Source of the DNA: Asterochloris sp. CNOR1 | Taxonomy: Eukaryota > Chlorophyta > Trebouxiophyceae > Trebouxiales > Trebouxiaceae | DNA: 64,000 bases | Assembly (NCBI GenBank): GCA_963969365.1 | Contig: OZ017752.1 | Coordinates: forward strand, 1,984,001-2,048,000 | Direction: 5' to 3' | Shown here: positions 1-64,000 of the stretch, piece by piece | Position numbering within the stretch: the first letter of the stretch is position 1 | How the letters are laid out: each line of letters begins with the position of its first letter | Made by a program: the position numbers and the translations under genes | Notes under the pieces: generated by a model | Databases searched by the model: none | Told to the model about the DNA's origin: nothing | What the model saw: only the letters and a program-made list of their open reading frames with translations

Positions 1-3000
1 CTTTCAAGTTGTCTGGCAGCTCTGATCTGCCAGCATAGCCAGGATTCATGGTGATGAATGCGTTGCAGGTTGGGCGCAGCGGCAGCTCGCTGCCCTCAAA
101 GAAGAAGCTCTTGACCTTGGCCTTGACCGCCATCTGGATCTCCAGGACCTGCTGCGCCACCACAGACAGCACCTGCAGGGCAAATAGGCAAAGTAGCCAT
201 GTCTTCATGAGGAACAGTGCATGCTTTAAGCCCAGCACTGCCAGCCTTGGTGGCTCTGGGACTTGCAGACCTGCACCTTTGCAGGTCATCGGCGGCCACC
301 TGGCAGTCCTGCAGTGGGCGAGGCAGCATGGCGCTGCATGGCTGAAATCGCATGCTGCAGGGTGCTGCGTACTGCACCCACTGCTTGCTGTGGCAAGCTA
401 TAAGCCAGGCTGCCGATATGCTGTGAATGAGCTGCAGCTGCCTGCATGATGCCACTTCTTTGCAGCTGAAGGCCCCTGCTCACTTCGAGATCAATGCGGT
501 TGAACTCATCAAAGCAGGCCCAGGCGCCTGAGGCTGCCAGGCCCTTGAAGAATTTGGCCATCGTCAGGTAGTCCAGGGTGTCACTGCAGTTGAACACCAC
601 ACACTGGCGAGCCAGGGCCTTGGCCAGGTCCTGCAGCACAGGCAGAACAGGAGGTGGCACAGATGACCACAAAATGCTTTTAGGCCAGATTGGCTCTGAA
701 GCAGGCGTCTGCAAACCTGGTGGTGACTGCCTTGCTCAGCACTCTGCTGCCAGGCTGGGAGAGCAGTCTCACCTTAGTGGTCTCGGTCTTGCCTGTGCCA
801 GCAGGGCCCTCAGGTGCACCGCCCAGGTTCAGGTGGATGGCACCCATGAGTGTACGGTAGCACCTGCACAGCAAGGTGGGAACTCAGAGAGCGCTGTGCA
901 GGCAACAGCAACACTGCCTGTTGCTGCTGCACCTCAACCAACGCAGCACAGAGAAGAGCTACATGCAATGCCAGCATCTCTATGCAGCTGCTGACACAAG
1001 CATGCTCACCTGTCAGTCAGAGGGGTGACGACCAGGCGAGCGCTGTTGCCAAGGTACTCATATCCATACTCCACTTGGGCATTCATCATGCGCACAGGAA
1101 CTGTCAGATTGTCTGAGTCACCGTGCATGTCCTGCAGATCAACCACTAAGGGTGTGCTGGCCAACAGCAAGCCTCAGGGGACTTCAACAGGTTGCTCTAA
1201 ACAGGCAGGGTTAAAAACCGAAACCAGGCTGAGAAAGCCACGACAGTAATCTGCCTTGTCACACATGCTGTCCAGATGCTGACAGCAGCCTTACCTCCCA
1301 GTACATTCTGAGCTGAGACAGCCAGGCAAAGTCTGTGACGTTGCCTTCTACGCCCTGGGCAGCCAGGTTGACCACCACATCCCTGCAAGAGACAGGACCA
1401 AAGTCTCACCTACACACCAAGAGGCTGGCCCACTGCTGCATAGCCATATACCACTTGCACCGCACGGCTCCAGCCTAAGTATAGCTCCAGCCGCTGGGCT
1501 GTTGACCGGTGCTGCCAGGTATGCATGGTAGGTGGTGTTCTTGAGTACCCATACAGTGACCACCTAAGTCGCTGACCTGTTGTGCACATCCATGACGACC
1601 AGCGCACTGAGGGTCGCCCTCTGCAGCTTGGTGAGCTGCCCACGGACCAGGCCGACAATGTTGCCCAGCTGGGCTGTGCACTTGTCAGCCACAGCTTTCA
1701 CAGAGCCTGCGGGCACGGAGGCACCGGTGTTCTTCTCAAGCCTCATGCCACTCAGACGCTGAAGTCAGGTGCTGCTCATCAGCTACTGGAAAGACGCCTT
1801 CCAGTGAGCACAGCTGCGGCACATCTCAAGAAGTTTTGGCATGCACTTGCCTGCAATGCCTTGTGTCAGCGCATTGGTGACGTCCAGTGTCCAATAGATG
1901 CCTGTGACCACCAGCACCACCTGGCCAGGCCACTCCAGCACCCACTTCTCGCGGGCTGTCTGGGCGTAGGCTGCCACACCCAGCTTGCAGGTCTCGTGCA
2001 CGCTTTCCACCATGCCGGCCTCCACCTGTACGCACAGCAGCTTTGACTGTATAGAGAATGCCTCTCTGATGATACGGCTGCCACTTGGAAAGCGCTTTGA
2101 CACTGTGGCTGGGGATGCAGGCCGAGTGCAAGGCTTCCCCTGAGTAAGGGCAAGGAGGGGCAGCTCCAGCCAGCGCAGACAACAGCTGCAGCTGATCCAG
2201 CCACCTGGCAGCATGGCCGGGGCGTGTTGGGTACCCACCTGAATGAGCCACTTCTCGACAGCGCCGCCCACCAGCGAGGGCTTGATGCGAGCCTTGAGGG
2301 GCACCAGCTCGCCCTCTGCCGACATCATGCCGCTGATGTCTCCATTGGGCTGGAAGTGAAGCTTGTCAATACCTGCATAGCCAAAGAGGTCGACAGCATC
2401 AGGATGGCACTCGGCACTGGCAGGGGTCCATCATCAGGTGCAGGAATGCGGGCAGCTGCTGCACAGTGGAGCTGCTCTGCATGAGAGGCTGCTGTGAGGC
2501 TGCATACGTGTGGCCTTCTTCTCTCTGCTGCAGGGTGGGTCCCCCAGCCGCCATCGAGGCTGCCATGGCGGGCAGCGCTGTCATATTGGCTTTCATCAAG
2601 CAAGGCCAGGACTGCATTGACAGGCAGTGGCACCGCGCACCTTCGAAGCACTTCTTGAGGTGTGGCTGCACTCTAGTGGGGTCCTTAGTCTCACTGAGAA
2701 TCTCCAGCATCTCATCATTAGATAGAAAGTAGAACCTGGGGAAGGCAATCCGCTTGACCTCTAGGTAGGCAGCCAGGCCCTTCTGGATCTCCTCCAGCAG
2801 CCTGTTGTTCTCAATGAGCGCTGCACAGCAAGCATGCTAATTTGACAGGAGCACGGGATGCGCATGCAGTGCCTCTTAGCCTTGCACAGCAAGCACATGC
2901 AGGCATTGCCTCTTCCTGCAAGCACTGTGCAGCCTGGTTTGTCAGGAAGGCGGACAGGTGTGGCATGCCTGCTGCAGCTGTCAGTTGCGTCATGCTGCTC

Positions 3001-6000
3001 AGGACATCTGCAGAACTGCTGCCGCACACTGATTCGTGGCACACTGTGGCAGGGTACCTGTCAGGCGATCCTTGTCTGCCGCAATGATGATGCAGTTGGG
3101 CTGCTTGGAGGCACTCTCCATCATCTCACGCCACTGCTGGTCCACCTGCAGTTGGGAAGTGCACTTGCTCAGCTCAGGCACAGGGAAATCAAATGCACAT
3201 GCATACTTGGGCTCTCAATGTGCAATCTAGGCCTCAGGCCATCGCTTGAGCCCAAGCCAGTCAAGCCACGGGGGGCACAGACTGCGAGCAAGCATTGGTC
3301 AGCAGACTGCATTGTCTCTTTTGAAGACGTGACATGGCGCAACAGAGCCTGTCACCTGCACAGCCCAAGGCAGTCAATGAAGCTTTGAGGCCCACCGGCC
3401 ATCAAGAGCCACCCAGACAGCAAAGCATATGGCTTGCAGCTGCAAGTGAGCATTGGCAAGCCAGCCTGCCCTGCAGCACACCACCAGACATTCCCCCAGA
3501 GTCGGCCTGTCACCTGCAGGAACTTCTCCCCCTCCTCAGGCATCTGCTTCAGGATGTCGGGGGAGGTGAAGATGGGCTCCAGGTACTGCCAGGTGGCCTG
3601 GCAGGTCTGCCAGTTGTCCAGCACCTCTTGAAGCCTGTTCAGCAGCTCATCCCACTCCGTGACAGCGCCCTCCAGGGGCCCAATGAAGGGCGAGGCACGC
3701 ATTGACTGCGTCTTGACAATCTGGTCATCCAGGATGGCCTGCATGGCACCAAAGCAGCAGATGGCTGGCGCTCTGTCCCACAGCAGAACCAGGCAAGGGC
3801 CAACCCTGTTGGCTGCAGCTCAGCTTTGCAGCTCTGGTGCTCTGCGCAGCTGCCAGGTCAGAACGGCATGCCTCGTGCCACCAGCTTCCAAGTGAGCATG
3901 CATGGCTTACCGTCAACGCGGCACAGCACAGCACTGCACAAGACCGGACACTTCAGGGCCGGCTAGCCAGCTTAGCTCACAGCACTCCCAGCACTGGCTG
4001 GCATGTCATCTGCACAGCAGGGCGCAGCACTGCCATCCCGCCCCAGCAGAGCAACAGGCCCCCTTTTCGGGCCTCGCCGGATTGTCATCAGCACCCCCCC
4101 AAACCCCATGGCAAGACAAAGACTGCATCTCCCAGTAGACCAACAGCCTCACCCAGCTTGTGTCTGGATCTCATGAGGCCCCCATGAAGCAGCCCCACAC
4201 CCCTTCCCCCTTGGCACAACCGTTGGCTGCAGTCAGCGCAGCAAGACGACACCCCCGTCCAGCCCTTCCCTCACCTGAACCTCATCAGTCCCCCCCATGA
4301 TGAAGGTGCCTGTGTCTTTGTACTCCACAATGCGGAACTCTAGGCCCTCCCAGTCCGCGTGCATCTTGTCCAGCGCCTTCTCCAGGGAGAACTCCTTGCT
4401 GGCATTGGTGCTGATGGTAGACACAGCCTCCAGGTGGTCCAGTACCCCCTTCTGCAGCAGGTCCTCCACCGAGAAGGGGTCCCAGATGCCCAGCTCCGTC
4501 TGGTGGATGCCTGCCTCACCCTCCTGCAGGACAGCAAAGCACCTGCCTTGAGTGATTTGTTGTTGTTTCAAGCCCTTCTGGAGCAAGTCCCTCCACCAAG
4601 GAAGGGTCTTATGTGCCCACCACCATTTATTTGATGCCTTCCCCACCCTCCTGCAGAATCAGGGTCACAGTAGAGATGGCCCTTCTGGAGGCAGTCAGGC
4701 TCTTTGTGGGAGTTGCTACCTTCACAAACGGTTGCCGAGCAGGTCCTGCTGTGCATCGCACCATCCACAGCCCTCAGGGATGGGCCTGCTGCCGTCTGTG
4801 TTGGACATTGCACGCTGCTGCTGGGCATGCTGCAAGCCAGGCTGCAGTCTCATCATGTGTGCTTCAAGGAGGCTGTTGCAGGCCAAGCCACACTCCTCTT
4901 TATCTTGATGAGCCCAGCTTTGTCAGCTGGGGGCGCCAAAGGCAGGTCTGCATGAGTGCTGACACATGGCTGCAAGCTACACAGTCAGCAACCCATATGC
5001 ACAGTTGTCAGGATAAGCAGGCTATTGACGGCGCACCACATCCAGACCAAGGAGGGTGAAGATGGCGCGCCAGTGCCGCTCCTTGAGGGCTGGGTTGCAC
5101 AGCTGCTCCATGACAGGAAGCACCTGCAGACAAGGCCGATTGTCGTGCTGATGTTGTCAGTCTGGAAGAAATGCTGCAAGCATGCAGAGCTCAGCTCTTT
5201 AGCAGAGGAACATTCGGTGCAGGCTGCACGGACCAGCAACCAAACGCCGACAATTGCGGCAACACAGGGCGCCAGGCAGGCCATGGGTCGGCTGAACACA
5301 GGCAGCTTCAGATCACAGACGCTGCGTTTTGGTCCACCGAAGCGACATGACAAATCAGCCACCCAGGTCGTCTGGGGCAGGAGCGTGAGGACAGCACAAG
5401 CTGCAGCTGACCCACTGACCATGCAAGAGCACCACCCCAACTAACCTGCTTGAACTCCTCCAGTTGGTCCTTGAGCACAGTGACCACTCGGTCATCCTTG
5501 TTGGCTTTGGACATTTTGTATGCCTTGGTGTTGAAGTCCTCGGCCTCTGACCTGACGGCTTCCATGGATAGGCGCACCTGAGGAGCAGGCATGAGACTAT
5601 CCCACACAGTGTCAAGCATGCTTCTGCAGCATCAGTCAATGAGCTGCTCATCCTGCAGCAATGACTCCTGCGGCCAGGAGCAAGCTGATTCAGAGCCTCT
5701 GCAACAGACACCTGGGCAGCCTGCTTGACAGCACTGTCAGCGCTGGGGCTGTGCCTCCCTCCACAGGCCTCAGCATCCTCAGGCCTGGCCCAGCCTTCCT
5801 GCACTGCATTCGCCAAGCAAATCGTGGAATTGTGCCCACTCACCGTATTGTCAGACAGGTTGAGCACTGGGCCCGTGGTCCAGTCAATGACCTTCTGTTG
5901 CAAGTCATACAGGGCCTTCCAGACAGCATAGCGCCCCTCGATCTCCTTCTCCACAGCGTCCAGGTGCACAAACTCCTCGCGCTGCATCTGGAAGATGTCG

Positions 6001-9000: not shown

Positions 9001-12000
9001 CCAGCAGGCTCGCCTCCTGCATCACCTTACGGTATGTCCTGCAGGAGGCGGTGGCACAGCCTTTGGCTAAACAGATGTCTGCGCAGCTCAACTCATCAAG
9101 AGCCTTAGTGCTGTCAGGCCTGAAGCAGCTACCTAGCTTCCTGCAGGGCTGCACTGCCCACATGCATGTTCTGCACACAAACGGTGTAGCTTATGCAGTT
9201 GCCTGCCAAATGCCATCATGTAGGCATCTGGGCAGCAGCTGGCTGCTATATGCCCTTTTGAGCGTGCATGTGCAAAGGCCTGCCAAGCAGCTCTGGACCA
9301 GGGCGCTGGCCCACAAGCAGCTGACAGGCACCCACTTGGCCCGCTCAATCTTCTCTGTCTTGATTGCAATCATGCTGCGCGCCTTGCCGCTGTCCCGTCC
9401 CTGGTACAGCTCTACCCCCGTGGTGTCCTCCAGCTCGGACATGTCCCGGATGCTCTCCTGGTAGATGCGCGCCTGCTTCTGGGCAGCCTTGCACACCTTC
9501 TCCACCACCTGCAGGAGGGTGTGGCCAACTGCTGCATCATCCTGCTGGCCAGAGACATCACTGGAACGGCTGCTGTTGCTAAAGCCAGGCGGTAGAGACG
9601 TGATGAAACTGGCTATGGAACTGCATTCTACACAGGGGAGCTTCAGCAGGGTTTTGGCATTTTGACAGCCTGCATGCTGTGGCATGGAGCTCTCCTCAAG
9701 CAAGCAGCTTCAGCAGCAGCACCAAGCTGCAGGCCTCCCTGCATGCCATGCAATGCGGCTTGCGCAGCCAACCTTGCACAAGCCCCCCACCTGCTGGATC
9801 TTCTCAGCAATGGCCTCCAGGGCCGGCTTGGCCTTCTGCTCCCGGGTAGCTAGCTGCAGGTCTGCATATTCCTCCAGCTGGTACAGATGGTTGGGATTGC
9901 AGTAGGACATCTTGACTGCGGCAATGTCCGCTGCATGGCTGTGAATGTCTATCAGGTGGGAGCAAAAGGTCGGCTTGGCCAGAAAGAGGCGCTCCTCTAT
10001 GCGCTGGCGCACCCGATTGAACAGCGTCTTCCTGACGCACTGCACAGTGAGCAGCAGGAGTGTCAGAATGGCGTTGGAGGTTGCTGGCAGGACTTTTGAG
10101 CACAAGGGAGCTGGCCACTGCCAGTCATTGAGCAGCATTTACTGCAAGTCCAGCACACTGCACGCAGACCTCCAGCGCCTGAAGCAGCGCTTCACCAGGC
10201 CAGAGCATATCCTAAGACTGCTTAACCCCCTGCCTCCAGCAATGGAAGCAGCACCCCACCAGGTTGCTCCCCTCAGGCCAGAAGGTTTGCATGCACCTGC
10301 AGCATGCAGGAATGCTGCCCTCCCTGCTGCTGCCTCGTCTGCTGCCAGCGCTGAAGCAATGCCCCACCAGGTGCCAGCCCCTTTAAGACTGCTGATCCCA
10401 TTTTGGGCCTTACTGCTTGCAATGGCGGAAAGAAGGCCCCTTCACTTGGAGATTCTATCCAGGTCGCCGGACCGCTGCCGTAGCCTCACCTGATTTCAGT
10501 GCCTGAAGCAACGCCTGATCAGTCTCACCACTTTCACGGCTGCTGACAGCTGCCACAGTGTCTCACCTGCTTCCAGCGCCGGAAACATCGCCCCACCAGG
10601 TATGTCCGGAAGTACTTGATCTTGCTGATCAGGTCAAACATGGTCTTCTCTCGCATCCACTCCCCTAGGGGAGTGAAGTCTGACTGCACGCCCTTACGGA
10701 TGTGCATGACCCCCGTGGCTGAGATTGTGAAGTACTCTGGCTCGATCTCTTCCCGCCTGACGACCACCAGGTCATAGGGGCGGAAGAGCACCCTCAGCCT
10801 AGCCCTGCAGCTTGTGTGAGGCAGCATTTCAGGGGGCAGCCCTGAAAGCTCCTTCTTGTTCTGTCTGAGCACCAGCAGGTCATAGGGGGGCGGCCCTTGG
10901 CTGCATCCAGTGGCAGTCGGTGCAAGCCAAGCAACACCAGGAGGCTAGAGCGTGCACAGGACCCTGACATTGCCATTGTGCAAGCATGGCAGTCCAAAGG
11001 CACACTGGATTGAAAGACGTCATGGCCCTGTCAGGTCTCCAGAGTGCAGGTCCGGCTTGAAGCAGTGGCTTCGCTGAGTGCTAGGTACTAGCAAAGCACA
11101 GAGACGCCCACCTATTGCAGTAGAAGAATTTGACAGGGCTGTCCTGGCCGAACTTGGCATAGAAGTCCACAACATCGTCGCCTGTCCTGATGTCCGGGTA
11201 CAAATCCACATCATCCTGCTCAGATGTGTGGCCTGCACAGAGCGAGCAAACACAAGATGCCAAGCTGCTCTGCCAAGAGTTTGCAGATAGCATTTCAAAT
11301 GATTCACAAAAGCTGTTGTTCAGGTTGTCAATGTGCCAGTAGGGGCCCCAAGGTGGCCAAGGCCTTGCCTCGAGCGGCTGTTGCCTCTGACACCCCAGTC
11401 TGGCTGCGGGCAGCCTTGATGGAGGCTGGCGGCAGCGGTTTTGCCCCCTGAGCTGCCGGCTGCCCTGTCTTAGTGCCAGCTCCTGCCTGCGACTTCCAGC
11501 TGGCTGCCTGCTTCGCAGGGGAGAATGAGTGCATCTGCAGGACAGGGCATGCCATCACTGAGACCCTCAGGGAACCAGCACCAGCAGAACAAACGGGTTT
11601 TCGGTCTGCCCTGCAGGGAGCAGAGGCTTTTTGCGATTGACGCATTTGCGATCGCCACTGAATAGTAGCAAGCTAGCTTCATGCAGTCATCTATGCACCT
11701 GCTTATTGATCTTGCTGGACGGCAGTTCATACTGCATGGTGGGCAGCGTGTCGGTGCTGAACAGTCCAGCAACGTCCCGCTTGTGGCTCATGGTGCTGTT
11801 CCGGCCAGTTGCATTTAGCTGCGGCAGGCCACCATTGGCCTCCTGCTTGTTTCCTGCAAAGACACAGCATTGTGCTGTGACCAAAACGTAGCACCTCCCA
11901 AGCATGCATGCAAGTTGCTGTCAGCTGGCGCAGATGAGTTTGCAGCGGTGCACGAACCTGGACGGGCCTTTGCTGGGTACCACATGGTGCCCTCTGGCAC

Positions 12001-12370: not shown

Positions 12371-15300
12371 ATGAACATGGAGACTGCCCCGCTTGTGGAT
12401 GCCTTCTCCCAGACAGTCAGCCCTGATCCGGTGAGCCAAACCGTCCACTGTGACCCGTTTTTAGCTTCACAGGCAGGCTATGCAAGTTTTGTCTGTGTCT
12501 ATGCGTTGCAGGCCAAGATCAAGCAGGCTGAGCTGGTTCTCAGGACGTACAGTTTGCAGCCAGGCTTTGGGATTGCAGTCCTGAGGGTCAGCAACTCAGA
12601 TCAGAGCTGCCTCCCCGGTGCACTACTGGCCTGCGCTGGCTCTGACCTCTCTGGGATGTTGCAGGTGGTGGCATCTGAGGCTCCCATTGAGATCAGACAG
12701 GCTGCAGCTGTCAACTTCAAGAACTTGACCAAGCAGCGATGGGTGGGTCCTCTTTGTTGCGTTAGTTGTTCTGTACCTGCCCTCCCTGGGAGTGTTTTCT
12801 ATGGTGCCATCCTGTGCTGCAGGTCCAGCATGAGGAGAGTGACGTAACGCCTCTGCCAGATGCTGAGAAGGTAAGTCCTGTACCTCTGCACTATGCTCAG
12901 TGTTAGTCAGTTCCTCAGCTGGTGCCTGTCATCCATCGCTATGCTGCCCAGTCCCTCACACTGGTGTCATGTGCTCTGGCCGTATTCCTCTGCACCTTCC
13001 ATGCTCGCCGTCACACTCCTGGCTGCAGGACCAGATCAAATCCCTCATCACCGACCTCATGCTGAGCACGCCCCTGATTGTGCGAGCACAGCTCAGCGAG
13101 GCCCTATCCATCATCAGCATGCATGACTTCCCCAACAAGTGGCCTGACCTGCTGCCCCGACTCATCCAGAAGCTACAGACAGGGGACCCTGCCACCATCA
13201 ACGGCGTGCTGCATACGCTCAACTCCATCTACAAGCGCCTGAGGGGGCAGTTGATGACAGATGCACTGTCCATTGAGCTGGAGGTGTCCCAGCAAGTGGT
13301 GAAACCCCTGCTGCACGCTCTGGAGCACCTCACGCAGCAGGTGAGCGTGTGCACAGCCAGGGAGGCTTGGCTGCTCTGCCGAGCAGCCACTTAGTGGTGC
13401 AAGCTGCAGGAGGGGCCCAGCTGCATGCCCTGATGCGGCTGAGCAAGGCATCTTTCTGAAGGTATGTTGAAGAATCCTGGCTGCCACACGGGCTAGATTG
13501 GCTCCAGCCACAGTGCGCGGGGCAAGGCAGCTCTGCTCATGGCCTGAACATGTGTACAAGGTGAAGTGGAGAAGGGGTGGGATGAAGGCCTCCATCATTG
13601 CATGGCAACTCCTGCTGTGCAGCGTAACCTGGACCAACTCACCCACCAGGTGTGCTTATCTAGGAGCGTGTGGGGCATGAGCAATTCAAGGCACAGGGCA
13701 TCTGGCAACCATTGAGGGGCCAGGAAGTGGTGAATGTACTGGTGCACGCCCTGCATCAGCTCATACTGAGCATTTCTGGACAAGCAAAGCAGACAAGCGG
13801 GTTTGATGAACTCATCTAACACCTACGCTGGTCCCTCATACCCGGTTCCGCAGAAGCTCACCTGCTGCGTGAGCTTCTGCACAACCCTGTCAGGGACCAG
13901 ACAGGTGTTGATGAGCACGTTGAACCGTGTTATTTGCCTTGCTAGTCCAGAGAGATGCTCAGCTCTAGAACGGCATGCAGCTGAACCAAGGGATGACGTC
14001 GCAACGAACAGCAGTGCCTCACTGCCTGCTGCTGAGGAGTGCCAGCAAGCTGCCCATCGTGACAAGGCTGCAGTGGTGTCTGCAGGTGAAGGCACAGATG
14101 CAGGATCCGGCCGCTCTGAAGCAGAGCCTGTCCAGTGTGCGCCTAGTGATGAGGGTGTTTTACTCCATGAACTCCCCCGGCCTGACAGAGGTAAGGAGCT
14201 GTGGCTGCTGCGGTGAACATCTTGATGCCTTGTTGAAGCTTGCACCAGGGGAGCCATGCAGTGCACTCAAGACGCACTGGCATGCAGCCTTGCTGCAGCG
14301 GGTCACACTTGTCCCCTTGCCCATGGCAGCAGCAATGCCTGACAAGCCACCACCACTGTCCACCCAGGCCTCTGTTCTCTCCTCTGCTGTGGACCAGCCA
14401 CACAACATTCACTCTTCAAGCCTGCTTGCATTCATTGCGCAGGAGTATGAGGCGGTCCTCAAAGGCTGGTTTGACCAGTTCCATGCCTACCTCATCCTGG
14501 ACTCCCGACTGGCAGCCGAGACAGACCCCGAGAAGGAGTCAGTCCTGGACGCAGTGAAGGCAGCTGTCTGCCAGAACCTGAACCTCTTCATTGAGATGAA
14601 TGAGGAGGAGTTCAAGGAGTACCTGCAGGTCTTTGTGGGGGACGTGTGGCAGCTGCTGGTCAGCGTGAAGGTCAATCCTGGACAGGTGGGCAGCATGCTG
14701 TGCGTGCAGCGCAAAAAGCATGAGGCGCATGTCCCACACTCAGCAGCAGTGTCAACAGGGCCTTGCTGCCTTGCTCCTAACCCCAGGCAATCCTACTGCT
14801 GACCAGATGCCAACTGTTGTGCCCCTTGCCCTGGACAGGATAATCTGGCCATGAGTGCCATCCGCTTCCTGACCACGGTGGCCCGCAGCGTGCATTTTGG
14901 CCTCTTCCAGCATGAGCAGACCCTGCAGCAGATCTGCGAGCAGATCATTGTGCCTAATCTGCGCATCCGGGACGACGATCAAGAGATGTTTGAGATGAAC
15001 TGGGTGGAGTACGTGCGGCGGGACACAGAGGGCAGCGACACCGACACGCGGCGGCGGGCAGCCACCGACCTGGTTAAGCGTCTCACCGAGAAGTTCCCTA
15101 AGGAGGTGGGTTGGGTCCACAGGTGGTCCAATACATCATAGGGCATCTGAAGTTGGCCGGTGGGTGAGCCTGGGGGCCAGGCAGGCCGACAGACAAAATT
15201 GTCTTCGAGGTGGGGCTGCAGTGTAATGACAGCATGTGGTCAATCGCTGCCCTGTGCAAGCCACTGACGGAGAAGCTCGTCAAGAAAGGTAAGCTAGGCT

Positions 15301-18300
15301 CACAGTAAGCAGAGTGGCTGTGGTCTAGCCCAGGGTCTGTGAGCACAGGCGTGCCCCCACACCTCGTGGTGTCCTGTCATGCACGGCCCTCAGCCTGTGC
15401 TGCATGCTGACTGCAGCACCTGACAGCAAGGAGGGACATATGTTGGGCGCACCTTGGCCCCTGACAAGTTGTCCATAAGTTGTCAATATTAGCCTGCAAC
15501 CACAGAGCTTGCCCATGCCCCTGCAGGTCAGCGCACTGTTCACAGGGTACGTGGCTGGCATGCTCAAGGAGTACAGCACAAACCCTGAGCAGGGTTGGAA
15601 GGCCAAGGACTGCGCCATCTTCCTGGTGCTGGCCCTGGCAGTCCAGGGGAAGACTGCTGCATCAGGTGGGGGTTATCTACATAATTGCTGCTACCCTATG
15701 GCTGCACAGGCGGCAAACCTGCTGCCGCAGGCAACGTGCATGCACACTGGCTGCTGCCAGTCTGCGCCATGGCAGAGACATAGTGGGTGCCTGCTTTGAC
15801 ACAGCTTTAGCACACTTGTTGTGTGCTTGGCCCTGGTAGGCACACCTTCATGTTGCAGGTGCAACCAGCACCAATCAGCTGGTCGATGTGGGCCAGTTCT
15901 TTGTTCAGCACATCCTGCCGGAGCTGCAGTCTCCCAATGTCAGTGAGCGCCCCATCCTTAAGGCAGACGCCCTGAAGTTCCTGACTACCTTCAGAAGCCA
16001 GATACCAAAGGAGGTTTGTGTACAGGTGAGTTCCTGATCTGGGCTGCCGCTTTCGCAGAGGTGTTGCCCTCCGTTTTGTGGCCTTGCATGGCATGCCAAA
16101 GCTCAACCTGCAGCCCCATGCTTTGCTTTCGCTGTTGCACTTCACAGTTGATACTGCCACTGAGGCAATTTTGTGTGGGCTGCAGCTGTTCCCAAGCCTA
16201 GTCAACCTTCTGGGGTCAGCGTCCAATGTGGTGCACTCCTATGCTGCCATCGCAGTGGAGCGACTGCTAGCCTCAAAGGTGTGATGTGCTGCCCAGTGGG
16301 CTGTCCACTGCCAACTCCGCTTGCACTCAGTCTCAATGCCCAAGTTATGAACTGCACACCTGCTCTGCAAGTTTGCCAGTCTGGGGTGATGTGGAGGAAA
16401 AGCGCCAGCTGACCTGCCACATCATTCTCCGACACTGGAATACCCATGAACATGAGAGTCGCCAGCTGACTATAGAGCAGTGGTGTTGGCCTCAATTCCA
16501 CAAGGCCCCCTGGCCGCACTGTTCTGCGATGCAGGGCAGTGTGTGTGCAGCGAGAGGCCCTGCCAGATGGCAAAAGTGGCGCATTTCTGGGAAGCCTGCT
16601 GTGCCAGTGTGTTCAAATGCAAGTGTGTGCGTGCAGGAGGGTGGGCACCTTCGGTTCAAGACGGCAGACCTGAGGCCAGTCCTGGAGGGCTTGCTGGGCA
16701 AGCTGTTCGGCATCTTCAGCCTGGAAGATTCCTCTGAGAATGAGTACGCCATGAAGACCATCATGCGTGTCATCAGCTTTGTAGGGCCAGAGGTCAGTAC
16801 CAGCCGTGCAGTCCTGCTTTCTGGGACAGAGGTCAGGTCTAGACGCAAGGGCTCCTCGCGACTTGGTTGCTGTTCCGGCCGCATGCTTGTGAGGTGCAAG
16901 GCTGCTCAGCACCATGACTCTGCTTTGGGGTTGCTCTGTCTCACCCCTAGAGGGCTTCATGCACGTCATCAGCACTGTGGGGCAGAGGTGATAGGTGGCT
17001 GTGCAATCTGCTCTCGAGCATCCCTAACATGAGCCTGTCGTACTACATGAGCAAAAGTGCTTGGGGCGCCACACCCCAACACATGCCTGAAATATTACTA
17101 ATTTGTGGGGCAACAGAACAGCATTGCAGTGCCGTGGCAGTTCCATGAATTCCAGGGCCACAGTACTCCTTTGGGCTCAGTTTTGGCATTGTCGAACAAG
17201 CATTCGCATAAATGGCTTATGGAATGTGATATGTGAACCGCTTTGTGTCTGGTCTGCGCTGTCAGGTTGCACAGCACTCAACTGTTGACCACCAGGCCTT
17301 CTTATCTGTCAGACGGGGGGGTGCTGTACAATGACGTGTGCCCTGACTCAGTAAAATTTAGCAACCTGCGCAAGTTGCCTGGCGATGCTCTGCCTACCAG
17401 CGGCCCCCTGACTGGGTGACCCTGCACACTGCCTGTCACTAGGTGATTGGAAGTGCTGCTGGTCATGCAGATTGCGCCTGCCATCCCCGCCTGCCTCTCA
17501 GCGCTGGCAGGGGAGCGGGGCATCCTCATGAGGGTCTGTCAGAACCCTCGCCAGCCGGGGTTCAATCACTACATGTTCGAGTCAGTGGCCGCGTTGGTCA
17601 GGCAGGGATGCGCCAGCAATGCCAGCATGGTTACTCAGCTGGAGGAGGCTCTGTTCCCGCCCTTCCAGTATGTACTGCAGCAGGATGTGCAGGTGGGTGT
17701 GATGGATGTTGACTGCTGTGATAGCTACAGTTGCATTCGGAGAGGAGATGCGATTCTAGGCCTGCCAGTGCATGCTGCAGCAGGGTGTGCAAGTGCACCT
17801 ACACAGCGCATGTATCAGCAAGCGAAGCCAGCTCATCTTAACGTTCCCTCTGATCCTCTCGGCAGCTGAGAGGGACAGACGCCTGCTGCATCACAGCGGC
17901 AGTGCGGCGGTGTGTGAAGCTGGCATGGGCTGGCCAGGTGGCAGGGGAAAGACGACTGAAAGTGAAGCTTGCTGAGGCAGCAGTGGGCGCTCTGCTTATC
18001 TGTGCCCTGCTGCAGGAGTTCCACCCCTACATCTTCCAGATCTTTGCGCAGCTGATTGAGCTGCACCAGGACGCGCTGCCAGAGGTGTACCTGACACTGC
18101 TGCCCGGCTTCCTGTCCCCTCACTTCTGGGAGCGCCAGGGCAACGTGCCGGCACTGACACGCCTCATGCAGGTCGGGGGCCGAGCAACTCACCTGTGCTG
18201 CCTGCTGTGCTGCTGCCTGGAAATCTTGATGCAGGGGGTCAATGCAAGGTCTGCTGTGCAGGCCTGCCATGCCGGCAAGCATTGCAGTGAGGCTGAGACT

Positions 18301-19698
18301 GGCAACCTTAGATCGGTATGCAGCATGTTTGAATGTCGGCTCAGGACACTTGATGTTACCTGGAGGTTGATCCAGAGCTCAGTATGCTGTCAGCTCAGGC
18401 AGATTTGTCCTGTGCTCTGCAGGCCTACTTGCGCAAAGCATCCCCCCAGATTGCTGCCAACAAGCAGCTGGAGCCCCTGCTGGGGGTTTTCCAGAAGCTG
18501 AATGCCAGCAAGGCGCTGGATCATGAGGCATTCAACCTGCTGGAGGGCCTGACCCAGCACCTGTGGGACAAGGGGCTGCAGCAGTACATGGGGCGGGTGA
18601 GTGGGGCGGGTGCACCGCACACCTGCATTTGCTAAACCCACAGTCAACTGACAGCTGCCCTGGCTCAACTGTGCCATGCCTTTCCCTGCAGGTGTGGAGT
18701 CTGCTGCTGACCCGCCTGCAGCAGGGGAAGACCACCAAGTACATCCGCTGCTTCATTGCCTTCCTCTCGCTCATGATCGCGCTGCACGGCCCAGCCGAGA
18801 TCGAGAGCCAGCTCAATACCATGCAGCCGGGCTTGCTGCTCATGCTGCTGCAGCAGATTGTGCTGCCCCAGCTGACAGCTGGCTTCTTCTCCAACAAGCA
18901 GCAGAAGCATGTGGAGGTGGCACTCATCAAGGTGAGAACAGTGCTATGCATGACATGCTGCTTTTGCTCCTGCTGGGTTGGTGGGAGCTGAGTCCTTTGC
19001 AGCAGGGAGAAGGCTGCTCGAGGAGCTCAAATGCGCCATTGCTGCCATTGCGTGCACAAGCTTTGCCCTAAACCTGACTGGCCGACAGGGTCTGCTACTG
19101 CCTAACCCAGAAGCACAGCCTCGCTTTCCCAGACCCTGTGCTTGGCTGCATCAATGCACACTGCACCTCTGCTGCAATCAAGCTTCTGATTACTTCTACG
19201 GCATCGTCACAAGCCCCACAGGTCGCGAATCCTGCCTGCAGGTGCTGACACTGTGGTCGCCGCTGCAAACGCCACAGCACTGGGTGTTCACTATCTAGTC
19301 AAGCATCTGTGCCATTAAATGCCTGCCTGCAGGTGCTGACGGAGTGGCCCCCCCTGCAAACGCCGCAGCAGGCCAAGCTGTGGGCCCAGCTGCTGTCCTC
19401 GCTGGGCAACTTGCTGGACGGCCGCAGAATACCTGCCAAAGGCGGCGCCGACGAGGAGAATGTGGATCCAGACGAGTTCACTGGGTACACTGCAGCATTT
19501 GCGCCACTGCATAATGCTGCAGCGGTGGACAGGGATCCCCTGGCTGGCCTGCCCGAGCGCAAGCAGCTTCTAGCAAACTCCCTGGCTGCGGCCAGCAAGC
19601 AGAGCCCAGGTCAGCTGGCAGGGTTGGTGCAGCAGGTGCCTGAGTTCAAGGAAAAGATCCTTACATACTGCCAATCGCTGGGTGTCCAGCTCAGTTGA
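12371..19698 (+). CDS. CSE1: exportin-2 (importin-alpha re-exporter, CSE1/CAS)
   Basis: Exports importin-alpha from the nucleus with RanGTP so that it can be reused for import. I can model the whole gene: exons 12371-12430, 12512-12586, 12665-12742, 12823-12870, 13029-13340, 14086-14190, 14443-14685, 14839-15105, 15527-15665, 15859-16025, 16186-16278, 16637-16792, 17471-17692, 18016-18171, 18423-18596, 18692-18931 and 19333-19698. All phases agree and they sum to 966 codons plus stop, against about 960-971 residues in yeast and human. Family landmarks in order: N-terminal SQTVSPDP, ATINGVLHTLNSIYKRLRG, YVRRDTEGSDTDTRRRAA, ILKADALKFLTTFRSQIPKE, SSENEYAMKTIMR, FNHYMFESV and GVFQKLNASKALDHEAFNLL. 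The fold is all HEAT repeats. Introns range from 78 to 745 bases; several contain decayed copies of the neighbouring exon edge. Tail-to-tail with ATM. Confidence 0.97.
13628..13775 (+). repeat. two direct copies of the exportin-2 exon 5 end
   Basis: 13628-13655 matches the exon 5 donor edge (13319-13346) at about 22 of 28 bases. 13709-13775 matches a longer part of exon 5 and keeps a frame reading EVVNVLVHALHQL against QVVKPLLHALEHL in the real exon. Confidence 0.8.
13850..13880. repeat. perfect inverted repeat containing an inverted exon 5 donor
   Basis: Twelve-base arms (GCAGAAGCTCAC and its complement) flank a 7-base loop. Read on the minus strand, 13873-13856 is identical over 18 bases to the exon 5 splice junction at 13329-13346 (CTCACGCAGCAG then GTGAGC). 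Confidence 0.85.
15246..15295 (+). repeat. intronic copy of the exportin-2 exon 8 end with intact donor
   Basis: The frame reads AALCKPLTEKLVKK against ATDLVKRLTEKFPKE at the true exon end (15061-15105), and a GTAAGC donor follows at 15289. Confidence 0.75.
16952..16992 (+). repeat. intronic copy of the exportin-2 exon 12 end
   Basis: TTCATGCACGTCATCAGC and the following GGGGCAGAGGT echo the true edge at 16757-16796 at nearly 80%. A shorter copy (GGGACAGAGGTCAGG) lies at about 16822-16836. Confidence 0.7.
17761..17802 (+). repeat. intronic copy of the exportin-2 exon 13 end
   Basis: 29 of 40 bases match 17661-17700. The peptide QCMLQQGVQV mirrors the real QYVLQQDVQ at the exon end. Confidence 0.7.
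19231..19283 (+). repeat. intronic copy of the exportin-2 exon 17 start
   Basis: 53 bases starting CCTGCCTGCAGGTGCTGAC repeat 19322-19374 at about 80%, covering the acceptor and about 40 coding bases (VLTLWSPLQTPQ against VLTEWPPLQTPQ). No good donor follows and the frame soon ends. Confidence 0.85.
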
Positions 19699-43070: not shown

Positions 43071-46000
43071 ATGTCTAACTCCTCAGCGACCTGCGGGGCC
43101 CTGCACCGCACCACGGCCATTTCGATCTACTCCGGAGCACCCGTGCTGATGTCTGCCGGTGCCAGCTGCAGGTTTCACGCCAGCCTCGGCATGCAGTCGA
43201 CCTCCGCGTCATTTGCCCAAGGTAGGCCTTCCGGATCAGCTTTCCTGTTGCAGCCTGCATCGGTGCACCTTGAATGTTGCAGTTTGGCAGCTTTGTTCAA
43301 GTGGCAGTTGAAGTGACATGCAGTGTGAATGCCCACACGGCGTTGTTGCTGCGGCACAGTCTGCGCCAGCATCCCCAGCAGCAGCTTGATGCTGCACAAT
43401 GCCCGATCAGCTTGGTTGGGGGCCACCTGCAGGCTCCTGATCGGTGACATGTCCCTACCCTAAAAGCGCCATGGGCAACCACACCAGCTGCTGAGGCTGC
43501 CAACTGCTCTGAGCACAGCCCTGCAGGATTGGCTGTGAGCAGATCCTGAAGCATCACTGTGCCTGCAGGAACCATGAACCCCAACAACCACCACCGCCAG
43601 GTCGCCAAGTCCTTGCCATCAGCCTTCCACATGCTTTCCAAGCCCTTGGTGACCAACCTGACCGGCCAGTCCTTGGCAATGGTGCCCCTGACCCTGCCGC
43701 CCACCATCCTGCACCACCCCAAGCCGCCTCCATGCCTGGCGCCCCACCCAGTGCACATGGCGCCCCACATGGCTGCTGCCGAGGCTGCCGCGGCAGCCGC
43801 TGTCAAGGTGGACAGGCTGCCCGGCGAGGGGCTCATCCCGGCGGTGCCCAGGCGCATGGCGCCCGTGACAGTGCAGCGCCGCAAGCAGGTGGTGGGAGGT
43901 GAGCTGCTGCCTGGAACCCTGCTGCTCCAAGCCATTTGATCCATCCCTTGCAGGATGTGCTTTGCACTTTCCAGTGCAGCCCTTGTGGTGCACACCAGGC
44001 AGTGGCGGCTGAGTGCTCATGTGCAGCAAGTCCACACACCTCCCACACTATCGTATGTGCCTGGGCCTCATCAGCTTCTTCATCTGCCTACAGCCATTGC
44101 AGACAAGACACTGGACCTCTTAAATCCCTCAACACTCCACAACAAGTGTTGACCACCTGCTGCCTCTCCAGGCACGGCCCAGGCCAGAGGCCACAGCCAA
44201 CACAATATGACCCTTTCCTGCACCTCATCAGTCCTTCCTTCCATCAAACGCCACCGCTCACTGCCCAGTCTGCTTCCCACCTGCAGGTGTGGCTGCAGTG
44301 GATGAGGGGGACGACGACTGGGTCCCCAACAGTGTTGAGGAAGCCGCAGCGCTGGCACGGCAGACAAGCCAGCGGCACCCCCATGACCGCCGCCGCGGCC
44401 CCTGCGTGCATTGCAATGTGACGGGTGGGTTCAAGCCCTCCTTTGCAAGCTCCCAAGCCCTTCAGGTTGTACCCCAGGTCACTCCGCATGCCGCTGCAAG
44501 CCAACTGTGCAATGCAAGGGCTCAATCCCCCTCTCAAAAGTCTCGCCGCCTGACACCTGCTCTCAGCTTGCCTTGCCGCCAAACATCGTTCTCAGGCCCC
44601 TTGCTGCTCAACACAAGTCCCCGCCCCCTTCCGGGCATTGCCTGCCCCCAAGCTGTGGCTTACCCCTGCTTGATGTTGACCATGGTGGCCTGAGGCATTG
44701 TGCTTGGCACCAGTGGTGTTCATGGGGCGTCAGCAGTGCCTTGTCCAGCCATGCAGCCATCAGTAAGCCCCTTGTGTAGACTCCCCTTGGAACTGGAGGC
44801 TGACTCTCGAACATTCCTGTCTGTGCTGCAGAGACACCCCAGTGGCGCGACGGACCTCATGGCCTGAAGACCGCCTGCAACGCATGTGGCATCAAGTGGA
44901 CACGGGGCAACCTGCCAGGCTACAACGTGAGGCAGCACCCCCTGCTCAGCCCCCCCTAAATCCCGATGGCATCCCCTGAACCTGACCCTCCTCAGGGGCT
45001 TCCCTGAGCGAGCCATCCCAGTCTCACCTCAGCCTGTGCTCCTGTGGGCCCCTGCATGCAGTGTCTACGCAGTGCAAGCTGCGACCCTGTGCTACAGCAT
45101 GCCTGACAGGTACTGGCAACACTTCCTGCAGAAGTCCTTGTTGCAGCGGCGCAGTATGCAAGGCTCCTTGCTCCCTGCAGCGCTGACTTGCCCACTCTCT
45201 CGCCCCGCAGAAGCTTACACTGGGCAGAGGATTGAGGTACACGGCCTTGGCTCCCTGCAGCACCACCACAGACCTGCATTGTCACCTTGCCCTGCAGCAG
45301 CCAGACAGCAGCAGCAAGAACTGCTGACTGATAAAGTGTCTGCAGCCCTGCACCCAAGCTGACATCTGTCCTCTCTCTGCCCTGCAGAAGCCAGATGGCG
45401 GCAAGAAGGAGGGTGGCAAGAAGGTGCCCAGCAAGAAGAGGGCCCGCGAGGAGGTGTCTGATGGCGAAACTGAATATTCTCCAGTGCACAGCGATGTGAC
45501 CGAGTCTGACAGTGACGGAAAGGTGAGACAACCCCCAGACTTCCTCTTCAAGCCCACACCTTGCCCGTGCCAGACATCTGCATTCCCCTTTTACCGCAAC
45601 AGCAGGGTTTGGCGTCCTGTACCCTTGTCAGGCCCTTGCTTCTGCTAGCTCTGCCCCATGCGCAGCGCTAGCCCTGCATCTACACACAGCACAGTCCTCC
45701 TCTGGGACCCTAAGCTTCTGCTGCACCCACTGACACTCACCACAAGCTGCCCTTGCTGCCTGTACGCCCAGCATGGGCACATGTGCAGCCCTGCTCGTCA
45801 TTGCCTGGCAGACCAGACTGCTGTGACTGGGTGCCTGCCGGCGCACATGTCTCTTGCGCAGCCTGCAACAGCACAGCACCAGACGCTCTTCCCCAGTCTG
45901 TCTCAAACAAATACGGTAGTCTCACCTGGATCCTCACATTCCTGCAGGGTCTGAAGAGGCGCCGTACCCGCACCCCTGCCTACCTGAAGGATGAGTATGT

Positions 46001-51000: not shown

Positions 51001-54000
51001 ACTACCAGGTGGCAGCAGAGCCCAGCAGCCCACCTGCTGAGTGCAGCAGCATGAGGCCAGCAGCGAACCTGCAGCTGCCTGGCCTCGGCAGCGATGGGTT
51101 CATGCTGCGCACTGGATCTGGCCAGCTGCAGAGGGGGCCGGCCGCTGCTGCCTGCTCAAGGGTCAGCCCAAACCCTCTGCGACGCAGAAGCAGGCATGCG
51201 CTGCCCGTCGGCGCAGGTCACCCCCGCAGCAGCAGCAGCGACAGCAGTGTTGCCGGCAGCAGGCTGCTGGCAAGGCTCCAGGGCCGGCAGCAGCACACAG
51301 GGGGGACAGGCATGGGGGAGCCAGATGGCAGCAGCCGGGGCGGCAGCACCACTGCTGCCAGGGGCAATCTGACCAGCGCCAGCATCTTGAGGCGGCTGCC
51401 CTCAGTAGAGCGCCTGCAGACAAGCGAGGCCCCTGACTCTGGCGCGATGCAGGCATCAGGGCTCAAACAGAGCCCAGGCCTCAGCATGGAGCAGGCGCTG
51501 CAGGCTCGGGGCAGCAGCAGCGACAGCAGCAGCGCCCAAGCTCGACGTGTGCGGGCAAGCCCGGTTGCATGTTGTCAGCGCCCTGTGCCTCCGGCAACCG
51601 CAGGCCAAAACCTGACAGAAAGGGACACCAGCAGCTGCTTGCCTGACCATGCCAGCGTGAGATGTGGGCAGCGTGCTCAGCATGCGCTGCTAGGGGGCAG
51701 CAGCTGCGACAGCAGGGCCAAGCAGGCGCCCGCCCGCGGGCGAGCCCCGTGCAGGCTGCGGGCGGACCCCTATGGCGATGAGAACGCCGCGCCTGCAGCC
51801 CAGCGCCCCCACAAAGCCAGCATGCGGGAGGCTGGGAGCAGTGCAGGAGCGCCTGGTGGAGCGGGGCGAGCCGTCAGCAGCATCCAGCCTGCTCAGGGTG
51901 CCCAGTCGCCGCCAGGCTGGCGTGCAGGAGGGGGCTGTGCTGAGTCACCTGGGGCTGGACGCATGGCCCAGCAGGCTGTGTCCAGCAAGGCCTCATCTGC
52001 CGCGGAGTCAGCGTCCGCCGTGGGCGAGCAGGCAGCGCGCGCTGTGCTGCTGTGCAGGAGTGACAGGGAGGGCCGCCAGCTGCCGCCCAGCACTGCTTCT
52101 GGTGGGGAACTGTGCTGTTTGAAAGCTTGTGCTGCATCTGCCAAGCAGCTGACTGGGCTCCAAGGCCTGGTACTCGACAGGCATGGTGCCGGCCACAGAG
52201 CATTGCAGCGGTCTATCCCGCGGCAGACAACTCCGAGATTGTTTGCTGTGCAGATGGTGCCTGTCCGTGCCTGCAGCAGCCTCTGGCTCCCAGAAGCGCC
52301 AGCGATCTGCTGCTGCTAAAGGGCTGGCAGGCCAGCACAGAGGGTCTGCAGCAGGCTGGCAGCGTTCAAATAACAGCTACCTTCCCAGCCCACCTGAGTG
52401 TGCAGCTGGGGGATTCAAGGCTGCCAGCCTGCAGCCTGGCCTCCAGCCAGACAGGTGCAGTGGCGGCTGCAACATCACCAGAGCAGCATGGGACATGCTC
52501 TGCTGGCAGCAGGCCTTCCCCAGAGGCAGGGTCAGGGACCATTCAGCGCTTGAAGCCTGATGCGGAGCATCAGGCAGGGCCAGCAGGCCGCCGCGTCCCT
52601 CACGAGGCAGCAGGCAGTCCCGGCCCTGTCCGCCACGACAGCGCCGCCAGCCTTGTGCTGGACACTGCAAAAAGGCACCAGAGCAGCAGGCTCAGCACAG
52701 CCCTGCCGGGCCTGGTGACCCGCAAGCTGGCCACCTGCAGCCGTGATGGATGGGACACCAGCTTGCGGGTGCTGCAAGACTGCTGCCATGACCAGCAGCA
52801 GGCGCAGGAGGTTGGCACCCCTGCTGCTGCTGGGGCTGCCACAGGAATATCAGCCAGCAGCTCTTCCCAGGTCGTACAGCAGCAGCGCCCTGCCGGCACC
52901 GCCAGCATTCCGCGTCTTCACCTCACGCCGCCCAGGGCCTCATCAGGCAGCGACCCTGGCAGCTGTGCAGCTTCCCCTGAGCAGGCTGGCACAGGGCAGC
53001 AGCGGCACCAGGACTGCAGCCTGGATGCCAGCATGCACACGCAGGGGCAGGGCTTGCCTGTCCCCAAGGCCTGCCGCGTGTGGGTGGTCCAGTGGCTGGA
53101 CTACACTTCCAAGTACGGCATGGGCTACCTTCTCAGCAGTGGCGCCTGCGGGGTGCTGTTCAATGACAGGAGCCGGCTCCTGCTGGCGCCAGACGCCCAG
53201 ACCTTCACATATGTCCAGCGCAGCAGCCATGGTGGGTCTTCCCAGAGCCAGGAATTGGCATCTGTGGTCACGCCGTGCCTGCAGACACTTGGAGGAAGAC
53301 AGGCAAGCTAAAGCGAAGCTATCAGGGCAAACTGCCCTAGCAGGTTCCTTCATCAGCAGAGCAGAGCTGCACCAACAACATAGCAAGCGCTGCCCTGTTC
53401 GGCTCCGTATTGGCCGAAGGACCTGCGGCCCTTGGACTCACCCTCATGCCGGCACGGCTTGGCTGCACTTCTGCACCTCTTTCCATTGCCCTGCCTGCAG
53501 GCACTACAAGGCCCTCAGGGGTTGTGCAGGCAGCCATTTTCAGCATGGCTGAGCCAGTGCCCCCTCAGCTGGCCAAGAAGCTGATGCTGCTGATCCACTT
53601 TGAGGCCCACCTGAAGGGGCTGTCCAGCCAGCGCTCGAGCCCTGTGCTGGCCTCTGCGGACCATGCCCTGGAACCCCGGCTGCAGCCTCTGGAGACCCTT
53701 CAAGCGCCAGGGCTGCACGTGCACCGCTACCTGCACACAGAGGCAGCCCATGTCTTCCGCTTCAGCAACAGGACGCTGCAGGTAGCCACCTCCTTTGAGT
53801 TCTCTTTCTCTACTCCTGCTGCTGTTTGGTGTCCTCTCTGTCGACGTCCGGTGCTGCTGGCCCTGCCCAGGCCCTGAGGAGCGTCAGTTCCCTTGGCCTG
53901 CTCTTGCTGCACACCATTGTCAGCCCAATTGTCATGTCCCTTCCCAGCAATTGAGGCCTTGCAATGCTATGGGTTGCTGGAGGCAGGTGCCGATCCCTGA

Positions 54001-62739: not shown

Positions 62740-64000
62740 ATGCCTACCTCTCAATCAGAGTCATGGCATGCCATTCTGGTAGCCGTGACTGCCTCTGGGC
62801 TCGACATTGGCGCCCTGAAAGCGCATGCCATCAGCCAAGAATTGGTCACGGCCCTGGATATCAGTGCTGTAGTAGCTTCAGTCGAGCCAGCCTCACCTCT
62901 GGGTGCTGAGCTGGCAGCTGCAAAGGCGGTGCGCAGCGCCTGCCTGCAATTGCTGCATGCCGGCGCAACCTGTGATGCACGAAGTGGGCAAAAGCCCAAT
63001 CTGGACTTCTGCTGCATTGCAGGCTGGCGCAGCGGATGCTCCCATAGAGCTGAAGGTGAAGGCGGTGCAAGCTCAGCTGCCTGGCTTCAAGGATGCAGCC
63101 CTTGCTGCTGAGCGTGCCAGACGCAGCAAGGCTGCTGAGGATGCTGCAGCAGCTCTGCAGGTATGCTGCTGCGCCTGGACATGCGCACATAAGCAGTTCA
63201 TCACGGATCAACAAGAAAATGCACAATGTGTGACTGGCTACTTGCCAGTCAGTTGGGAGCCATGTTTGGCGATCCTGCAGTGTGATTGAGGCCCCCACCC
63301 AGTGCAGGCTGCATCGGCAGCAGCAACAGAGGCAGCTGATGCCCTGGCAGCCGTCAAGGCAGCTGTGGAGGCAGGGGCACTCCCACCAGCAGCCAGCCCG
63401 GCAATGCCGCCAGCGGAGCCCAAGCCCCCCACCCCCCCTGCAGCTGGCAAGGCTGCAGCTCCCCCTGCTGCTGGAGGCAAGGCAGCCCCAGGCAAGGCTG
63501 CTGAGGCAGGCAAGCCAGCGGCAGGGAAGGACGCAGCTAAGGCTGTAGATGCTGCTGCAGCGGCAGCTGCCGCGGCCAAGGCTGCAGAGGAGGCTGCTGC
63601 TGCACAGGCAGCCCAGGCTGCGGCCGCAGCAGACCCAGTCGGGACTGCTCAGCAGGTCGGGTACTTGTGTTTGTGCAGTTTTGGTGTGGCTATGCGGCAG
63701 CATCTGGGGCAGGGGGAGATGTCTGATCTTCAATTGTGCCTGAGCCTGAGGCAGAAGTCAGGCCTTGACGCCTCGTTTACAGTGGTAGCATGTCAGGACA
63801 ATCACAGCGCCTGAAGTCATTTGAGCTGAGACCCCAGCTTGTTCTGAGCTTTGTTCGGGCATGCCTTCAGAATTGCATGACCAGGTTCTTGTCCCCACCT
63901 GCACCTCTCAAAACGTGACATGCCCTTCAAACAACACCTCCTTGCCTGCAGACTCTTGAGGCTGCCCAGAAGCAGCTGCTGGTAGCCAGGACAGCCCACA
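62740..64000 (+). CDS. Ala/Lys/Pro-rich protein of unknown function, N-terminal part (3' end beyond the window)
   Basis: I do not recognise this family. A phase-0 model fits: 62740-62928, 63023-63160, 63308-63655 and 63952 onward. The start MPTSQSESWHAILVAVTASG is followed by a short, possibly folded region. Exon 2 encodes IELKVKAVQAQLPGFKDAAL and a basic RARRSKAAEDAAAAL helix. Exon 3 is low complexity: AAGKAAAPPAAGGKAAPG-like runs with Ala, Lys and Pro, then a long poly-Ala/Glu helix. Exon 4 begins TLEAAQKQLLVARTAH. The composition resembles linker-histone tails or appended helical linkers of large enzymes, but that is only a compositional remark. The first donor (62928) was chosen for phase and is the weakest join. 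Divergently paired with TTI1. Confidence 0.6.

Follow-up and report, generated by a model that had tools for sequence, protein, structure and literature searches.

Introns in a 64-kb stretch of the Asterochloris sp. CNOR1 genome hold decayed copies of their adjoining exon edges

Apart from mobile elements, little is known of where intron sequence comes from, since intron DNA is quick to decay. Here we describe introns that hold old, worn copies of the edge of an adjoining exon in a stretch of 64,000 nucleotides from the green alga Asterochloris sp. CNOR1 (assembly GCA_963969365.1, contig OZ017752.1, positions 1,984,001 to 2,048,000), below called the window. The closest described process is tandem genomic duplication. 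In the available part of a review it is counted among the mechanisms of intron gain, with 188 events in the review's table (PMC3443670), and the available part of a study on potato RdRp reports a new intron formed by copying of an intron-exon segment and also mentions an 83-bp tandem duplication within an intron (PMC4974935). As far as these texts describe such cases (ATP2A1; potato RdRp), the copies in the window resemble them in being short genic duplications that carry splice signals and are masked by splicing. They differ in that the described events give new or duplicated introns, whereas in the window introns already present grow longer and retain decayed copies of their own edge, and the introns of the window lack a general AGGT birth signature. 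The finding belongs with tandem genomic duplication, but it concerns the growth of existing introns by arrays anchored on exon edges. An initial annotation, made from the sequence alone, had stated that no named element fits; this was right for introners, but a closely similar process, tandem genomic duplication, does have a name.

Small tandem duplications from break repair are a known class of mutation, connected in the part of the source available to us with CST/Pol alpha-primase and non-homologous end joining and introduced there as the commonest insertions below 100 bp in the human genome (PMC8355091). Like them, the copies in the window are direct, local and small; unlike the duplications covered in that part, they often have longer units, are old and occur several times over, and any junction microhomology is illegible after decay. 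With minisatellites and other intronic tandem repeats they share a head-to-tail arrangement within the intron and a partly regular spacing, but the arrays are anchored on an exon edge, the copies are 65-91% identical and the steps mostly measure ~46-230 bp. Tandem Repeats Finder, run on the window at a score of 50, reported none of the strong edge-copy cases. Introners, as presented in the available part of their description (PMC9860276), likewise involve repeated sequence within introns, but the edges in the window match their own intron and not neighbouring introns, and direct matches more than 1 kb apart, which a shared intron family would give, showed no clear excess in the window. A literature search covering titles and abstract openings did not find introns with copies of their own edges described.

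The window has a GC content of 57-62% in 4-kb bins. Gene models were predicted from the DNA, without RNA, by a two-strand gene finder that was self-trained on the window and converged on 138 introns with a median length of 247.5 bp. Training was constrained by length priors, without which it ran to tiny introns (605). The trained models gave the splice consensus CAG/GTGAG for donors and CTGCAG/G for acceptors, the slash marking the junction. Two predicted pieces of an axonemal dynein heavy chain matched best to the solved chain 8glv_Mm (900 and 987 bits), which we take to come from Chlamydomonas. The predicted exportin-2 protein matched a solved Cse1/exportin-2 chain, the ATM prediction matched solved ATM chains over its last 900 residues only, and Pfam searches with the protein pieces supplied confirmed GATA, protein kinase, POLO boxes and TTI1. 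Both the splice consensus and the dynein match point to a chlorophyte green alga. A stop lies close to the start of the dynein model, one of the five models fuses the kinase with the GATA gene, and some small predicted exons (at least two) look wrong.

Exon edges, each comprising up to 60 bases of exon and 15 of intron, were aligned with the intron they adjoin and with every other intron. Scores were corrected for length as well as for effects of the individual edge and intron, and p was obtained as the rank among mispaired pairs. At p<0.05, <0.01 and <0.001 we found 27, 10 and 9 of 138 donor edges and 25, 14 and 10 of 138 acceptor edges, with 6.9, 1.4 and 0.14 expected by chance for each edge type. 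The initial annotation had reported extra copies of both donor and acceptor edges and had proposed a comparison of own with mispaired edges, which equal scores would have decided against copying; run within the window, this comparison gave clearly higher scores for own edges. The exon part of the edge alone gave 8 of 137 donors and 13 of 136 acceptors at p<0.01. When introns were shuffled within genes, none of 2000 shuffles reached the observed own-edge mean, for donors or for acceptors.

Pairing edges with neighbouring introns of the same gene (introns ±1 to 3, 768 pairs for each edge type) returned 1.4% of donors and 1.0% of acceptors at p<0.01, which is the chance level. Reverse-complemented edges gave 2 of 138 donors and 4 of 138 acceptors at p<0.01 and none of either at p<0.001; the acceptor control was slightly above chance, with 11 of 138 at p<0.05 and 131 of 2000 within-gene shuffles reaching its mean. 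With the far side of long exons as query, 1 of 72 donors and 1 of 75 acceptors passed p<0.01 and none p<0.001, and the neighbour pairs of these far sides stood at 2.9-3.1%, for which we have no explanation. The excess was retained in the homology-backed subset of 61 introns (dynein, exportin-2 and the 3' part of ATM), where 6 donor and 5 acceptor edges fell in the top 0.1%. It was also retained after removal of 10 weak frame-neutral predicted exons; in the resulting trimmed set of 128 introns, 10 donor and 10 acceptor edges reached p<0.001, compared with 1 and 0 for the reverse complement, and 24 of the 128 introns reached p<0.01 on either edge. Counting all copies that scored at least 15.5 in the trimmed models, we obtained 21 at donors versus 3.3 expected and 17 at acceptors versus 2.5 (in total 38 versus 5.8), and 13 of 256 edges had at least two own-intron matches scoring at least 13.5, where ~1 was expected.

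A blastn comparison of the window with itself, which uses no gene models, placed 32 of 95 direct pairs scoring at least 20 less than 500 bp apart, compared with ~1.5 expected; the shortest-distance bin of these pairs partly reflects low complexity and tile effects. Of the inverted pairs, 23 of 176 lay under 200 bp and none at 200-500 bp, a short-range excess without explanation. We regard it as confirmed that introns of the window hold real copies of the adjoining exon edge, and roughly one intron in six does so. The description of the copies as direct and local was accurate in that direct copies are far above chance, inverted similarity being at most weak. Their reported occurrence throughout the window applies to all five predicted gene models and not to every intron.

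The strongest set comprises 21 copies from 276 edges (p<0.002), located in 20 introns. All 21 are direct and lie 76-228 bp from the edge (median 108), and their identity counting gaps is 68-86%, slightly wider than the 70-85% first given. Division of the spacing by three leaves remainders of 0, 1 and 2 in 7, 8 and 6 cases, so there is no frame preference. Mismatches are spread evenly over the three codon positions (64/306, 68/305 and 74/304, or.21,.22 and.24), and the decayed copies, or ghosts, thus show no sign of coding constraint. Exact 10-mers at lags of 20-200 bp recur 94 times directly and 41 times inverted, with a ratio of 0.88-1.55 in the bins beyond. Measured with a sliding 40-bp segment, the similarity excess peaks at the junction and fades out on the exon side, after ~60 bp for donors and within 120 bp for acceptors. 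The duplications are direct and span no more than a few hundred bp; that they are adjacent is clear only where the blastn alignment is about as long as the spacing or longer (157 columns at a spacing of 159, 102 at 110, 148 at 90 and 119 at 76). Six of 12 acceptor ghosts score at least 6.5 as splice sites, where real acceptors score 5.4-10.7 and the 95th percentile of intronic AGs is 5.6; three of nine donor ghosts score above 5, exceeding the 95th percentile of intronic GTs. Strong ghost sites occur in exportin-2 (19228-19279), ATM (37304-37353) and the GATA gene (45288-45318), and such sites could act as cryptic splice sites.

At least two copies were present in 12 of the 15 introns examined for them. 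Spacing varies less within introns than among them, successive steps resembling each other more than shuffled steps do (P=0.002 for all 12 multi-copy introns with none omitted, P=0.004-0.005 when either of two introns is omitted), and the copies form tandem arrays that have decayed and have the exon edge as their anchor. They run head to tail in direct orientation and are regularly spaced, although several introns are irregular and single-copy cases give a spacing only; some weaker array copies, detected at a low threshold or with ghosts as queries, may be chance matches. The clearest array is in the 527-bp dynein intron 10566-10040, which follows the exon ending in ...RCFRRWKQ. Its donor edge recurs five times, at steps of 77, 76, 75, 109 and 64, so that the one to four copies per intron noted initially were too few. 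The cysteine codon is TGC in four of these five copies and TGT in the exon, so that either a silent change has since occurred in the exon or some copies were made from other copies. Arrays in ATM have steps of 73/70, 55/94/90, 76/68 and 93/93/81/109/110, and the GATA array has steps of 87/90. A predicted exon of 14 residues in the dynein intron (10297-10338) was judged false on its coding score of 0.5 and because it forms an insertion relative to 8glv_Mm; without it the flanking exons join gap-free in that alignment, as read by eye. The copies are listed in Table 1.

Table 1. Copies of exon edges in introns of the window, with coordinates in window positions
Feature	Position of copy	Strand	Spacing or steps (bp)	Identity	Remark
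Dynein intron 10040..10566, five donor-edge copies	10485-10522, 10413-10440, 10331-10372, 10229-10264, 10154-10199	-			
Dynein intron 5036-4524, copy of acceptor edge 4447-4534	4573..4662	-	127	69/90	
Dynein intron 11111-10805, copy of exon bases 10740-10780	10848..10888	-	108	31/41	Source 24-65 bp inside acceptor; junction not reached
Exportin-2 intron 13341..14085, donor-edge copies	13607-13655, 13714-13763, 13833-13883	+			Small predicted exon 13623-13649 within intron doubtful
Exportin-2 intron 16793-17470, copy of donor edge 16761-16794	16957..16989	+	196	28/34	
Exportin-2 intron 17693-18015, copy of donor edge 17642-17695	17742..17795	+	100	39/54	
Exportin-2 intron 18932-19332, copy of acceptor edge 19318-19370 (exon VLTEWPPLQTPQQ)	19228..19279	+	91	45/53	Retains ghost CTGCAG/G
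ATM intron 21168-20788, copy of donor edge 21222-21164	21086..21142	-	~79		
ATM intron 22125-21831, copy of donor edge 22155-22112	22000..22043	-	112		
ATM, copy of acceptor edge 22362-22312	22422..22474	-	110		blastn 102 columns
ATM intron 25329-24882, acceptor-edge copies	24949-24976, 25033-25071, 25082-25125	-	outward steps 90, 94, 55		
ATM intron 26862-26264, donor-edge copies	26802-26825, 26747-26785, 26690-26720	-			
ATM intron 29967-29702, copy of acceptor edge 29712-29649	29745..29815	-			
ATM intron 32568-32264, copy of donor edge 32595-32561	32487..32520	-	76		Weaker second copy 32419-32458
ATM intron 32916-32763, copy of acceptor edge 32762-32708	32813..32866	-	104		
ATM intron 37520-37196, two acceptor-edge copies	37238-37278, 37304-37353	-	steps 70, 73		
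ATM intron 38038-37746, copy of acceptor edge 37753-37718	37814..37847	-	94		
ATM intron 41061-40712, copy of acceptor edge 40716-40625	40751..40840	-	124	66/96	
GATA-gene intron 44927-45387, acceptor-edge copies	45175..45318	+	steps 87, 90		
Kinase gene, copy of donor edge 51482-51562	51669..51747	+	~186		Edge repetitive in composition
TTI1, donor-edge copies after exon ending 56986	56819-56850, 56669-56721	-	steps 164, 147		Farther copy predicted as frame-neutral exon 56675-56767

The copies are most probably explained by short tandem duplication that has no target, is tolerated over splice sites and is followed by decay. Units of mostly ~50-230 bp would arise locally, with no special aim. 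A duplication wholly inside an exon would disrupt the protein and be lost, whereas one within an intron or straddling a splice site would be tolerated, in the latter case because the spliceosome can keep using the outermost copy (the first donor or the last acceptor), leaving the mRNA unchanged. The inner copy would then become intron. Since the exon copy is under selection while the ghost decays, ghosts stay legible against the exon, and repeated events would build edge-anchored tandem arrays, a one-way growth of introns that depends on splicing. We infer the duplicating process (slippage, unequal exchange or break repair), the neutrality of the events and the non-use of the ghost sites. The own-edge excess, the arrays and the greater length of the introns concerned support local duplication across splice junctions with subsequent decay, as initially proposed.

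Introns in the strongest set are longer than the others, with a median of 315 versus 243 bp (Mann-Whitney P=0.0014), a comparison in which long introns also offer more room for a match; subtraction of one unit per copy brings the median of these 20 introns to 211 bp. Together the 21 strong copies make up 2,567 of 37,042 intron bp (~7%). At ~100 bp each, the excess copies would account for about 9-14% of intron DNA, and this is a floor because older copies are no longer visible. With such shares, the suggestion that the process is a main route of intron growth is unproven.

Whether the duplications, or templated insertions, are aimed at splice junctions, for instance through break repair at R-loops or copying from pre-mRNA, was judged from their placement. 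The clearest copies lie on edges, their extension on the intron side is weak and step sizes are irregular in several introns, all as targeting would have it. However, if duplications of the observed unit sizes are placed at random over introns of 200-250 bp, 66-76% of the tolerated ones straddle a splice site, so that targeting is not needed. Detection is itself biased to edges, because only there is one partner held by selection. Introns without edge copies show internal direct self-similarity as well (6 overlapping tiles scoring at least 16 versus 0.3 expected, and 0 for the reverse complement), which the untargeted model requires and which argues against targeting; in introns with edge copies the figure is 20 tiles versus 1.2 expected. 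The regular steps in part of the arrays moreover indicate tandem units, and we consider junction targeting unlikely. Slightly less likely still is that the copies are functional, serving as parts of alternative or mutually exclusive exons or as selected decoy splice sites. This would agree with the good splice-site scores of half of the acceptor and a third of the donor ghosts, with the prediction of one TTI1 ghost as a frame-neutral exon and with stops in just 4 of 281 ghost codons, but the spacing lacks a preference for multiples of three, the mismatches are even over codon positions and the copies are exon fragments with indels. Whole exon copies with both splice sites and a kept frame, as mutually exclusive exons would be, were not found, with TTI1 56675-56767 as a possible exception; the copies are partial, carry indels and show no codon-position effect.

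The copies might also be relics of intron birth, in which tandem duplication of an exon segment containing AGGT creates the intron. One anchored match was found in dynein intron 3, and at the 3' end of introns 5 of 138 lie above the mispaired 99% mark where 1.3 are expected, a mild excess. The dynein match depends on a predicted acceptor that is likely to be wrong, the 5' end gives 1 of 138 in the top 1%, and in most cases the ghost is internal to the intron and contains the junction. When aligned in register, own pairs averaged 9.64 and 9.31 matches of 37 and mispaired ones 9.52 and 9.57, an excess of at most half a standard error. Birth by this route is therefore very improbable, and the suggestion that such duplication could create new introns found no support in the AGGT test. 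Least probable of all is that chance similarity, compositional bias or errors in the gene models produced the signal. In favour of this, the models are predictions made from DNA alone, two or more of the small exons look wrong and the dynein model contains its early stop. The neighbour, shuffle and reverse-complement controls speak against such an origin, and the result was the same in the homology-backed introns and after trimming of the models.

Several observations weigh against untargeted duplication and decay as a full account. Young copies are nearly absent: just 1 of 21 is more than 90% identical, where a simulated constant birth predicts 33-38%, which also makes the mixed age initially assigned to the copies doubtful. 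The process would then be episodic, or something is missing from the account; possible causes are a pulse in the past, the merging of young tandem copies during assembly or something we have not thought of. Similarity on the intron side is weak, with a mean z of 0.70 over the 19 of 21 matches that could be tested and values below 1 in 12 of the 19, and the simulation reproduces this only at ~0.25-0.30 substitutions per site and copy with frequent indels. Divergence at silent sites does not clearly exceed that at other sites (ratio of 4-fold to other sites ~1.18, 95% CI 0.74-1.76), a mild tension because symmetric neutral change predicts more silent divergence. Inverted internal similarity in introns with edge copies (6 tiles scoring at least 16 versus 0.8) is neither predicted nor explained. 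Finally, steps are irregular in exportin-2 (209/100/122/97/225 and 195/129), ATM (46/9/47/56/70/289), the kinase (185/144) and TTI1 (164/147 and 206/85). The first three of these tensions agree with old copies but would also allow another history. The lack of young copies, together with the absence of raised silent divergence, led us to consider copies that were born diverged through error-prone copying; this is unlikely, since it would give similarity on the intron side equal to that on the exon side, which was not seen.

A more far-reaching version of untargeted duplication is tentative, and we would sooner doubt than accept it: in this lineage, splice-masked edge duplication may have been the dominant, episodic engine of intron lengthening. 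Most introns would then consist of their own edges, copied over and over and since decayed, and the many ghost sites still intact would be a lasting reservoir of cryptic splice sites, both donors and acceptors, on which alternative splicing could draw. Of such a duplication, selection maintains only the exon edge, and this provides a living template against which every ghost can be counted and, in principle, dated. Applied to annotated genomes, an own-edge scan would measure the share of splice-masked tandem duplication in intron growth, by lineage and through time.

Other features of the window were noted. The kinase gene at 48318-54231 (+) encodes a polo-like kinase, with a Pfam Pkinase match of 204 bits and a C-terminal POLO_box match of 77 bits; to our knowledge, land plants lack polo-like kinase. 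Among the few young-looking tandem duplications is one at 36146-36223, with 2.5 repeats of a 31-bp unit at 91%. A tRNA-Leu(CAG) predicted by ARAGORN within the ATM gene (36608-36685, -) had no Rfam match at gathering scores and is probably false. A short 17/35-bp tandem array rich in GCACTGCAG lies at 58599-58688, and an alanine/lysine/proline-rich open frame with internal repeats occupies the window end (63290-63814, +).

For comparison, a scan of genome contigs gave 15 loci and a scan of viral contigs none. Four of the 15 lie on eukaryote-like contigs of one pond metagenome-assembled genome (MAG) and have long uninterrupted reading frames, with too few introns for comparison. Eukaryotic-type dynein heavy chains with 57-80% identity are encoded at L001, L002, L003 and L011 in the GTDB bacterial MAG Verrucomicrobiaceae H1_MAG_00039, where the dynein-bearing contigs range from 47 to 61% GC and are apparent eukaryotic contamination. 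Dynein frames also occur in rumen bacterial MAGs (L005, L006, L008 and L009) and at L004 and L007.

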